Source: Candidatus Rokuibacteriota bacterium
GTDB taxonomy: Bacteria > Methylomirabilota > Methylomirabilia > Rokubacteriales > CSP1-6
DNA: 8,152 bases
Direction: 5' to 3'
Assembly: GCA_016177555.1 (NCBI GenBank)
Contig: JACOVB010000025.1
Coordinates: forward strand, 1 to 8,152
Positions 1-5,859 of the stretch are shown here, piece by piece. Numbering within the stretch: the stretch's first letter is position 1; every line of letters begins with the position of its first letter. A program made the position numbers and the translations under genes. The notes under the pieces are model-generated. The model did no database searches, had not been told where the DNA came from, and worked only from the letters and a program-made list of their open reading frames with translations.

Positions 1-40
1 CCGTACCTCCGCAGATGGGCCTTTTTCAGCGGCCTGCTAG
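1..40 (-). repeat. 40-bp stop-codon-associated repeat, copy A
   Basis: Read on the minus strand this segment starts CTAGCAGGCCGCTGAAAAAG and matches 5357-5396 (plus strand) at 38 of 40 positions. Its TAG (39-37) is the stop codon of the SCP2 gene, so the repeat begins at or within the stop and runs into the 3' flank. A stem CCGC-t-GA / TC-t-GCGG with one T-T mismatch and a 10-nt loop can form; the two differences from the other copy lie in the loop and beyond the stem. The repeat reaches base 1, so it may continue outside the window. It could be a REP-like mobile palindrome or a conserved 3'-UTR or terminator element. There is no U-tract. Confidence 0.8.
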
Positions 41-357
41 ACCTGGAAGAGGGAGCCCACCTTCATGGCGAGCCCCATGTCGCCCTTGAGCTTGAGCTTG
101 CCCGACATGAAGGCCATCTGCCCGGAGAGCTTGCCGCCGACCATGTCGAGCCAGTCCTGGGAGGACATGGTCAGCGTCAGGTTCGGGTTGGCTCCGGGGC
201 CGGCGTTCACCGCGCAGGCGCCATCCTTGATCACGGCGTGCCAGGTGCCGGCCTGATCCCCCGTGATGTCGTACTGGATCGTGGCGTTGATGCCGGCGGC
301 CTTGCTCGGCTGGAATTTGCTGGCCATCGCGTCGAAGGTCTCTTTGACGGTGGGCAT
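37..357 (-). CDS. SCP2 sterol-binding/lipid-carrier domain protein
   Basis: A 106-residue protein consisting of a single SCP2 (sterol carrier protein 2) domain. Such domains bind acyl-CoAs, sterols and other lipids in a hydrophobic tunnel and have no catalytic residues. Family features visible are the N-terminal helix (VKETFDAMASKF), the middle strands with the pattern NLTLTMSSQDWLDMVGGKLS, and the C-terminal GKLKLKGDMGLAMKVGSLF. There is no signal peptide, so it is cytoplasmic. The ATG at 357-355 is chosen because an ideal AGGAGG lies at 370-365, 7 nt upstream, although the frame stays open much further upstream. It is the last gene of the fadR-hydratase-SDR operon, 44 nt after the SDR stop, and probably shuttles or presents acyl-CoA substrates. 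The TAG stop belongs to the 40-bp repeat. The family assignment is firm; the ligand is unknown. Confidence 0.9.
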   Translation of the reverse strand: MPTVKETFDAMASKFQPSKAAGINATIQYDITGDQAGTWHAVIKDGACAVNAGPGANPNLTLTMSSQDWLDMVGGKLSGQMAFMSGKLKLKGDMGLAMKVGSLFQV

Positions 358-4385: not shown

Positions 4386-5360
4386 ATGCGCTCCTCCCGC
4401 CTGTCCGGCTCCGTCGCCGCGCTCCTCGCGGCCCTCGTCCTCTCCGGGTGCTCGGTGATCTCCCTCGACCTCCAGCCGCGCATCCGCCCGCTCGTGGAAG
4501 AGACCGTGGAGGGCTCGGGCGCGGCCAAGATCGTGCTGATGGACCTCTCCGGCGTGCTGGCCGAGGACAACCCCGGGCTGTCCATCGGCACGCCGCCACC
4601 GCGGGTCCCCCTGCTCGCGCGGGTGCGCGAGGAGCTGCGGCGCGCCGACCAGGACGACCGCGTGCGGGCCCTCATCGTCCGCATCAACAGCCCGGGCGGC
4701 ACCATCACGGCCTCGGACATTCTCCACCACGAGATCTCTGCCTTCAAGGCGCGGAAGAAGATCCCCGTGGTCGCGGTGATCATGGACGTGGGCGCCTCGG
4801 GCGGGTACTACGCCGCGCTGGCGGCCGACACCATCATCGCCCATCCGACGGCCATCACGGGCAGCATCGGCGTGGTCATGCTCACCGTGAACGCCCAGGG
4901 GCTGCTGGAGAAGATCGGCGTCGCGCCGCTCGCCATCAAGTCGGGGCCCAGGAAGGACGCGGGCTCGCCCTTTCGCAGCCTCACCGACGAGGAGCGCGCC
5001 ATCTTCCAGGGCGTGATCGACGACATGCACGGCCGCTTCGTCCGCCTCATCGCCGCCTCCCGGAAGATGCCGGAGGAGCGCGTCCGCGCCGCGGCCGACG
5101 GGCGCATCTACACGGCCGAGCAGGCGCGCGCCCTCGGCCTCGTGGACCGGGTGGGGTATCTGGATGACGCGGTGGAGACGGCCCGGCAGGCGGCGGGGCT
5201 GAGCGAGGCGCGCATTGTCATGTACCACCGCCCGAGGGAGTACCGCGCCAACTTCTACTCCTCGACCCCGGCCGCGCCCACGGCGGAGGCGGCCGTGGCC
5301 CACCTCGCCGGCCTCGTCGGCGGCGCGGGCCCCCGCTTCCTCTACCTCTGGTGGCCCTAG
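4386..5360 (+). CDS. sppA: Lipoprotein S49 peptidase, signal peptide peptidase SppA type
   Basis: A 324-residue single-domain S49 (ClpP-fold) serine peptidase, close in length to B. subtilis SppA (335). Residues 1-21 are a lipoprotein signal peptide with lipobox L19-S20-G21-C22, so the mature enzyme should be lipidated at Cys22; Ser at +2 suggests export to the outer membrane under the E. coli Lol rule. The oxyanion segment NSPGG is at 101-105. The nucleophile is Ser138 in GASGG and the general base is Lys190 in KSGPRKD, 52 residues apart exactly as Ser147/Lys199 of B. subtilis SppA. The family TGSIGV is at 158-163. It should cut leftover signal peptides or misfolded envelope proteins. Most SppA proteins have a transmembrane anchor rather than a lipid anchor. 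Its promoter predicts a leaderless mRNA. The TAG stop lies inside the 40-bp repeat, and a prepilin gene follows 79 nt later. Confidence 0.93.
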   Translation: MRSSRLSGSVAALLAALVLSGCSVISLDLQPRIRPLVEETVEGSGAAKIVLMDLSGVLAEDNPGLSIGTPPPRVPLLARVREELRRADQDDRVRALIVRINSPGGTITASDILHHEISAFKARKKIPVVAVIMDVGASGGYYAALAADTIIAHPTAITGSIGVVMLTVNAQGLLEKIGVAPLAIKSGPRKDAGSPFRSLTDEERAIFQGVIDDMHGRFVRLIAASRKMPEERVRAAADGRIYTAEQARALGLVDRVGYLDDAVETARQAAGLSEARIVMYHRPREYRANFYSSTPAAPTAEAAVAHLAGLVGGAGPRFLYLWWP

Positions 5361-5396
5361 CAGGCCGCTGAAACAGGCCCATCTGCGGAGGTGCGG
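5357..5396 (+). repeat. 40-bp stop-codon-associated repeat, copy B
   Basis: It starts CTAGCAGGCCGCTGAAACAG, whose TAG (5358-5360) is the sppA stop. It matches copy A (1-40, opposite strand) at 38 of 40 positions; the differences are at 5374 (loop) and 5393 (after the stem). The predicted stem is 5365-5371 with 5382-5388 (one T-T mismatch); an alternative is GGCC/GGCC at 5363-5366 and 5376-5379. Sequence upstream of CTAG is unrelated between the copies, so the left boundary is sharp. It lies between sppA and the prepilin gene and points the same way as the preceding gene in both locations. Confidence 0.85.
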
Positions 5397-5439
5397 CGCC
5401 GCCGCCTGGCAGAAACCCTAAGGGAAGACGGCGGCAACG

Positions 5440-5859
5440 GTGCTAGCCTGGTTCTTGATGGGCTCCCGGCCTCACGGACAGCGCCCGCGACGAGCCGCTC
5501 GGGGCTTCACCCTGATCGAGCTCATGATCGTCGTGGCCGTCATCGGCATCCTGGCGGCCATCGCCATCCCGCTCTACGCCAACATGCAGTCGCGGGCTCG
5601 CATTGCCAAGGCCGAGGCCGACGCCCGCACCCTCGTGTCGGCCATCAGCATGTACTCCTCGCACATGCGGACCCTGCCGTCCACGCTGGCCGACCTCAAT
5701 GTCGCAACCACCAATAGCGATGGCATGGTGTCGGGGCCCTTCATGGCCTCGACTCCTGCCCCCCCCGCGGGCTGGAGCCCCTACGCCTACAGCTCCACGT
5801 CGCTGGGCGTCTTTGCCGTGACGACGAGCGGAGACACCACGACGGTCAGGCTGCCGTGA
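5440..5859 (+). CDS. Type IV prepilin-like protein (PilA/GspG type)
   Basis: A 139-residue precursor with a classic class III signal: basic leader RPRRAARG, cleavage after Gly22, then [22 protein letters not shown], with the conserved Glu at mature position +5 (Glu27). A PilD-type peptidase would cleave and N-methylate it, leaving about 117 residues. The helix continuation [20 protein letters not shown] resembles T2SS major pseudopilin GspG and short bacterial pilins. The C-terminal half has Ser/Thr-rich strands and no cysteine pair. The start is uncertain: GTG at 5440 gives a 22-residue leader, ATG at 5458 gives 16. No convincing Shine-Dalgarno precedes either. No other pilus or secretion gene is in the window, so it is an orphan here. 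It may be co-transcribed with sppA through the repeat, as no promoter is evident in the 79-nt gap. Confidence 0.85.

Follow-up and report, generated by a model that had tools for sequence, protein, structure and literature searches.

The window, i.e. the whole 8,152-nucleotide stretch of Candidatus Rokuibacteriota DNA (contig JACOVB010000025.1) that was analysed, holds two copies of a 40-bp repeat, one at positions 1-40 on the minus strand and the other at 5357-5396 on the plus strand. They are identical at 38 of 40 positions and both start with CTAG, and the TAG of this CTAG ends the adjoining gene in each case, namely an SCP2 sterol-carrier-like gene and an sppA-like gene. As such, this part of the sequence-only reading, including its figure of 95% identity, was borne out. 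The features of the two sites are as follows:

1..37, minus strand: left end of putative MITE copy 1, which starts at G37 and runs off the window start
38..39, minus strand: TA target next to the left end of copy 1, forming the first two bases of the SCP2 stop TAG (39-37)
37..357, minus strand: SCP2 sterol-carrier-like gene, its TAG stop lying across the insertion boundary (PF02036, E 7e-24)
4386..5360, plus strand: sppA-like peptidase S49 gene (PF01343, E 6e-48)
5358..5359, plus strand: TA target next to the left end of copy 2, forming the first two bases of the sppA stop TAG (5358-5360)
5360..5400 (end approximate), plus strand: relic left end of putative MITE copy 2, without recognisable right end
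5440..5859, plus strand: type II secretion / pilin-like gene with an N-terminal methylation motif (PF07963, PF08334), downstream of and outside the element

From our point of view, the repeat in all likelihood forms the left-hand terminal inverted repeat of a MITE that lacks its own transposase and is moved by an IS5-type enzyme to TA, mostly within CTAG, a reading drawn from sequence comparisons.

Anatomy and spread of the element

Copies were counted in the nearest relative genome compared (G001), which has 36% of sampled 31-mers in common with the window and contains a 2,000-base stretch identical to MGBT01000039.1 of Candidatus Rokubacteria bacterium GWA2_70_23. With up to three mismatches, a 28-base core occurs there at 60 places (27 forward, 33 reverse) and its reversed control at none; the abundance of the repeat in this genome is far above chance, and the dozens of copies agree with the earlier expectation of many per genome. 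Across 40 genomes the spread is patchy, the left end being found in nine (G001 included), with 67 matches in G001, 42 in G002 and 10 in G003; element copies are also carried by G024 and G025.

The G001 loci yielded 69 distinct left ends, 51 of which have a recognisable right end. The 40-mer had been taken for a unit of its own; the repeat is real, but it does not stand alone and constitutes the left ~40 bp of a longer non-coding element. Two-ended copies span 107-216 bp, and 49 of the 51 measure either 150-154 or 211-216 bp (the others 107 and 146 bp), which gives main size classes of ~152 and ~213 bp. At this length, and with no transposase gene inside any of the 51, the copies have the size of MITEs. 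The count of 69 is built on left ends and leaves out copies with a right end only; two loci (L111 and L112) show nothing but a right end within the stretch fetched for them. As for the window's own copies, the G001 orthologue of the SCP2 copy (L012) is of the long type and continues until the contig end, and the sppA copy is a left-end relic both in the window and in G001 (L013).

Both ends form terminal inverted repeats of the type TAGCAGGNNGC.GAAAAA, the right one varying more. The left end consists of TA followed by GCAGGCYGCTGAAAAAGGCCCATCTGC, and the right end, read inwards, of TA followed by an outer end of the type GCAGG.TGC.GAAAAA and then by an inner copy, GCAGGCYGCTCAAAAAGGTCCAGATGC, which pairs with the left arm. 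All 51 copies retain a G-G mismatch between the paired arms, which can form a long hairpin (-90.6 kcal/mol in L076 and -111.2 kcal/mol in L031); such a long imperfect arm hairpin is a usual feature of MITEs. The predicted long-range pairing is one between the two arms of the element and not a local stem. The stem CCGCTGA/TCTGCGG, which had been predicted earlier, is not conserved, at least six of its seven pairs surviving in just 19 of 69 copies.

The arm modules travel together (A/A in 39 copies, B/B in 10 and mixed in none, with 49 of the 51 examined being classifiable). When copies of equal size are compared, the B type has the less stable fold (L085 -53.2 vs L076 -90.6 kcal/mol and, in the long size, L024 -89.2 vs L031 -111.2 kcal/mol), and on this ground strong base-pair covariation between the arms was rejected; A and B may simply be two subfamilies. 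Most arm positions hardly vary, position 6 being mixed (T-A 21, C-G 18, C-A 12).

Four loci of G001 (L003, L016, L025 and L029) hold tandem fusions in which the inner right end directly joins a second left end; the junction reads GGCCTGCGAGGGCTGAAAAAGG in L003 and L029 and is closely similar in L016 and L025. At two insertion sites shared by G001 and G002 the size class differs between the genomes (~212 bp in L022 vs ~152 bp in L117, and 153 bp in L092 vs 214 bp in L124). This suggests that the interior of the element is altered once it has inserted, perhaps through recombination among copies. Rfam gave no match at gathering scores over the whole window and, for seven loci with full elements searched up to E = 1, a single match, none lying in the element. 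This match, to RF02514 (5' ureB sRNA; L085:282-577, 93.9 bits), lies away from the element and is perhaps just conserved urease coding sequence.

Target site and gene stops

The first of two alternatives raised earlier, an element inserting at CTAG, is borne out by the boundaries found in G001. Left 4-mers of the 69 copies are CTAG in 49, GTAG in six, TTAG in one and others in 13, and right 4-mers of the 51 two-ended copies are CTAG in 29, CTAC in three, CTAA and CTAT in one each and others in 17. TA is present at the left boundary of 58 of 69 copies and at both boundaries of 30 of 51, and the best-kept copies have the boundaries N-TA-[GCAGG...CCTGC]-TA-N. Six of these 30 have unlike 4-mers (CTAG/CTAC twice, CTAG/CTAA, TTAG/CTAG, GTAG/CTAG and CTAG/GTAG), and their unlike outer bases fit a duplication of TA rather than one of four base pairs. 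The remaining 21 of 51 lack TA at one or both boundaries (one through masked bases), which we read as decay.

For 16 G001 insertion sites, a query made of the two flanks with the element taken out was compared with two sister genomes. Four of them (L001, L023, L031 and L071) gave clean empty sites, the relative matching across the junction with a single TA where G001 has two (e.g. query 2197-2386 at 90% in G002). The other 12 joined-flank queries matched with one flank only, ended near the junction or contained gaps, and for L085 and L074 TA is absent from the expected place in the relative. At the clean empty sites TA, or more of CTAG, is thus duplicated; all four carry CTAG on both sides in G001 and cannot by themselves separate a 2-bp from a 4-bp duplication. 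Together with the unlike outer bases, the alignments suggest that the duplicated bases are TA alone and not CTAG. At the orthologue of the L018 site in G003 (C68, 83831-84065), ~235 bp lie between both flank matches.

Genes were called with scores from a codon model that was trained on the window genes; by these calls, a terminal NTAG is the exact in-frame stop of an adjoining gene in 46 of 69 copies, a number which a second caller returned again (left end 33, right end 11, both 2). With a longest-ORF caller, stops account for 10 of 49 ends and for 10 of 58 background sites in G001; in our own reading, antisense ORFs mislead this caller at high GC, and the codon-scored calls were therefore used. 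Placement relative to stops is hence not random, in line with the sequence-only reading, and still has to be held against the CTAG background. CTAG is rare in G001 (28 sites in 204 kb), and the 30 free CTAG sites of the same loci divide into 20 gene stops, seven intergenic sites and three sites inside genes; when other filters were applied in an earlier count, 15 of 28 CTAG sites lay at stops, and of about 1,570 other TA sites 49 do. The stop share is the same in copies and free CTAG sites (46/69 vs 20/30, p = 1; vs 20/27 when sites inside genes are set aside, p = 0.63), so that target choice explains the placement in G001, and the second alternative, a selected 3'-end signal, finds no excess over the target background there. 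From this it follows that an apparent 'stop-codon signal' can come from target choice alone, and that free CTAG sites are the control that is needed.

The orientation relative to the host gene, which had been thought fixed, varies: among the 51 two-ended copies, 22 have a stop at the left end only, 11 at the right end only (22 to 11, p = 0.08) and two at both ends. A gene was called on both sides for 43 of 69 copies, with 29 pairs being co-directional, 11 convergent and three divergent.

It had further been claimed that the repeat supplies the stop codon of its host gene. As a description of where the TAG lies this stands, but in the causal sense it fails for sppA and is mixed for SCP2. In both G002 and G003, sppA has no element (site GGCCGTAGCG) and ends in TAG already (GGCC-G-TAG); its stop therefore predates the element and was kept upon insertion. 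The SCP2 insertion is common to the window, G001 and G002, and the element-free gene ends in CTAG in G005 and in TGA in G003; the SCP2 stop is likely, although not settled, to be older than the insertion. Since the first base of the element is G and its target is TA, a TAG stop is rebuilt whatever the original third base was.

As such, the following course of events is the most likely. An IS5-type transposase of the NF033581 group, present or past, would move the element in trans, and insertion would occur at TA, mostly inside CTAG, with TA alone being duplicated. Where the target TA belongs to a TAG or TAA stop, insertion leaves a TAG behind and the gene product intact, as the element begins with G. 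With CTAG being rare and the sampled CTAG sites being mostly gene stops, target preference would put about two thirds of the copies on stops, and loss of gene-breaking insertions could add to this. A target that is rare and located at stops, combined with a first base that rebuilds the stop, would offer a simple reason why dozens of low-harm copies could accumulate, and why such a copy number could be reached in a gene-dense, GC-rich genome.

Partner transposases and rival explanations

Scanning a species collection with the pattern CTAGCAGGYTGYTGAAAAA returned at least 118 stretches, two of them G001 contigs. The matches listed, with the G001 contigs set aside, comprise 55 end pairs, of which 49 measure 113-289 bp and six 1,289-1,513 bp; of the six long pairs five were scanned, each of which codes for an IS5-type transposase above the NF033581 cut-off. 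A profile made from these five transposases has matches in 10 of 40 genomes. Full-length relatives within the window's family occur in G005, G006, G011 (two) and G022, and weaker or partial matches in G003 (weak, 4.8e-7), G013, G014, G017, G021 (one partial and one distant, 2e-38 and 1e-28) and G030. In G005, G022 and G011 (L305) the transposase lies between inverted ends of the MITE type (1,302, 1,296 and 1,334 bp) and matches NF033581 with E values of 4e-85 to 2e-83, which brings the scanned transposases above the curated cut-off to eight of eight. The element and IS5-type insertion sequences have these ends in common. By exact-prefix agreement from TA inwards, a measure that one early change is enough to cut short, a sampled same-family IS end is matched over 18-22 bases by 9 of 51 right ends and over 19 bases by 19 of 69 left ends; for 30 of 51 right ends, agreement with the sampled IS ends stops at six bases or earlier.

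Profile searches found no NF033581-group transposase in G001, G002, G024 and G025, all of which have copies, so that the partner has been lost, is unassembled or has diverged in these genomes. G006 carries an IS5-type transposase with one such end (L306) and two more pieces at contig ends; despite the transposase, the MITE left end has no match there. Among the matches listed (G001 left out), 47 ends that were not selected by the pattern point to a YTA target, the outer base being C in 32, T in 12, G in two and A in one. The outer bases are unlike in 15 of the 55 end pairs, 12 of which have the form T-TA..TA-G or C-TA..TA-A. These 12 pairs fit a duplication of TA on a YTAR target, and not one of all four bases.

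A different view would be that the element is retained at gene ends as a selected 3'-end signal, with its hairpin terminating transcription or protecting the mRNA. Such a role would be compatible with the exact gene stop preceding 46 of 69 copies, the long hairpin of the arms (-90.6 and -111.2 kcal/mol), the excess of left-only over right-only stops (22 to 11, p = 0.08) and the cross-phylum proportions given below (p = 0.003, from a crude caller among the matches listed). However, free CTAG sites in G001 have the same stop share (p = 1), a terminator scan of the full copy L031, which detects short loops only, found none, and the element is missing at several orthologous sites of the sister genomes. 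We therefore consider a 3'-end signal improbable, and an effect of the hairpin on transcript ends is unproven.

Two further explanations concern the machinery that moves the element. The two boundaries of the element fit a TA duplication, which is a hallmark of the IS630/Tc1 family, the pneumococcal RUP being such a case. RUP is described as similar to IS630-Spn1, with TA targets (PMC2229807). PF13358 has, however, no match in G001, G002 and G024, none of the 11 DDE_3 loci in the other three of six genomes carries these ends in the fetched stretch, and the five scanned long cross-phylum pairs (5/5, among the matches listed) as well as the three bracketed copies of the family encode IS5-type transposases, which makes an IS630/Tc1-type MITE very improbable. 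We attach still less probability to a REP/BIME-like element that a Y1 (RAYT) transposase moves via single-stranded hairpins. The imperfect palindrome with its kept G-G mismatch (51/51 copies), a few tandem fusions and the 5' NTAG, which is reminiscent of REP feet, speak in its favour, but none of the three Y1_Tnp loci in the six genomes has the repeat nearby, which also answers the earlier suggestion to look for a RAYT/Y1 transposase; G003, G024 and G025 have copies without a Y1_Tnp locus, and a target duplication is visible at the clean empty sites. Among the loci found in the six genomes, no IS630, DDE_Tnp_1 or Y1 locus is bracketed by these ends. PF01609 transposases were likewise rejected as partner: only one of 21 loci in the six genomes (L132) lies near a MITE, with no second end around the gene, and L131 and L149 show one chance-like end match with four mismatches each.

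Known elements and breadth across phyla

The autonomous counterpart of the MITE would be the IS5 family (NF033581, transpos_IS5_4), which has ends of the MITE type and a YTA target; unlike IS5 insertion sequences, the element contains no transposase gene. Its duplication looks like TA, whereas that of IS5 is reported as 4-bp YTAR (PMC10359306). REP/BIME sequences with RAYT are likewise dispersed palindromic repeats near gene ends; in contrast to them, the present element has no Y1 transposase association in six genomes and has a target duplication.

Bacterial MITEs with TA ends are described as small and hairpin-forming, with many being intergenic (PMC2229807, PMC2759123, PMC10969869). Correia/NEMIS, ERIC/RU-1 and RUP are likewise non-coding, with inverted-repeat ends, terminal TA, target duplication and a stem-loop (PMC2229807, PMC2759123). 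The element is GC-rich, whereas most MITEs of that kind are described as A+T-rich, and its ends match IS5-type elements, whereas the partner proposed for RUP is IS630-Spn1. An RU-1 insertion in ECA3499 is reported to have taken away the stop and lengthened the protein (PMC2759123); the present element, in contrast, keeps the stop. The Chunjie MITE of Geobacter uraniireducens (178-235 bp, with conserved ends and direct repeats, 37 further intergenic copies and 57 partial copies; PMC10969869) is, by its description, similar in size, conserved ends and intergenic copies. In the literature searched, none of five end sequences of the element occurs in a paper, queries on Rokubacteria with palindromic repeats or transposable elements returned nothing relevant, and queries on MITE, stop codon, TA, CTAG and Geobacter returned no description of the element. 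We file it as a new MITE family of a kind already known, with a stop-preserving geometry.

Beyond G001, the matches listed for CTAGCAGGYTGYTGAAAAA come from Acidobacteria, Alpha-, Beta-, Gamma- and Deltaproteobacteria, Nitrospira, Chloroflexi, Nitrospinota, Planctomycetes, Gemmatimonadales, Spirochaetes and others. The end sequence is also carried by the genome of Citrifermentans bremense (L249), a member of the Geobacteraceae. Judged by eye, the interiors of the short cross-phylum elements are mostly unlike one another, which points to MITEs born repeatedly from an IS5-type IS group. Among the matches listed, it is the TAG frame that is the long open one at 45 of 117 ends (G001 left out), compared with 62 of 901 background readings, and a crude gene caller placed 38 of 120 ends at stops against 29 of 370 CTAG sites (one G001 contig, L245, included); the ratio of stop to intergenic is 38 : 59 for ends and 29 : 110 for background CTAG (odds ratio 2.4, p = 0.003). 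As this caller fails at high GC, the numbers are rough and the stop excess across phyla is a lead, not a result. One could speculate that the end TAGCAGGYTGYTGAAAAA marks bacteria-wide IS5-type elements and repeatedly born MITEs which use stops beyond neutral target choice, via target preference or hairpin selection. We regard this as rather unlikely; if it were true, insertion at TA combined with the initial G would make stop codons a safe harbour. The end sequence can help to locate MITEs in uncultured phyla, and the hairpins of such elements may affect transcript ends or genome rearrangement.

Some elements elsewhere have interior blocks in common with the Rokubacteria element, such as CATCTGCKKCGTT and ACGTAC..GTACGCCTCG, namely those at L253 (Deltaproteobacteria), L250, L211 and L217 (Nitrospira/Nitrospiraceae) and L215 (another proteobacterium).
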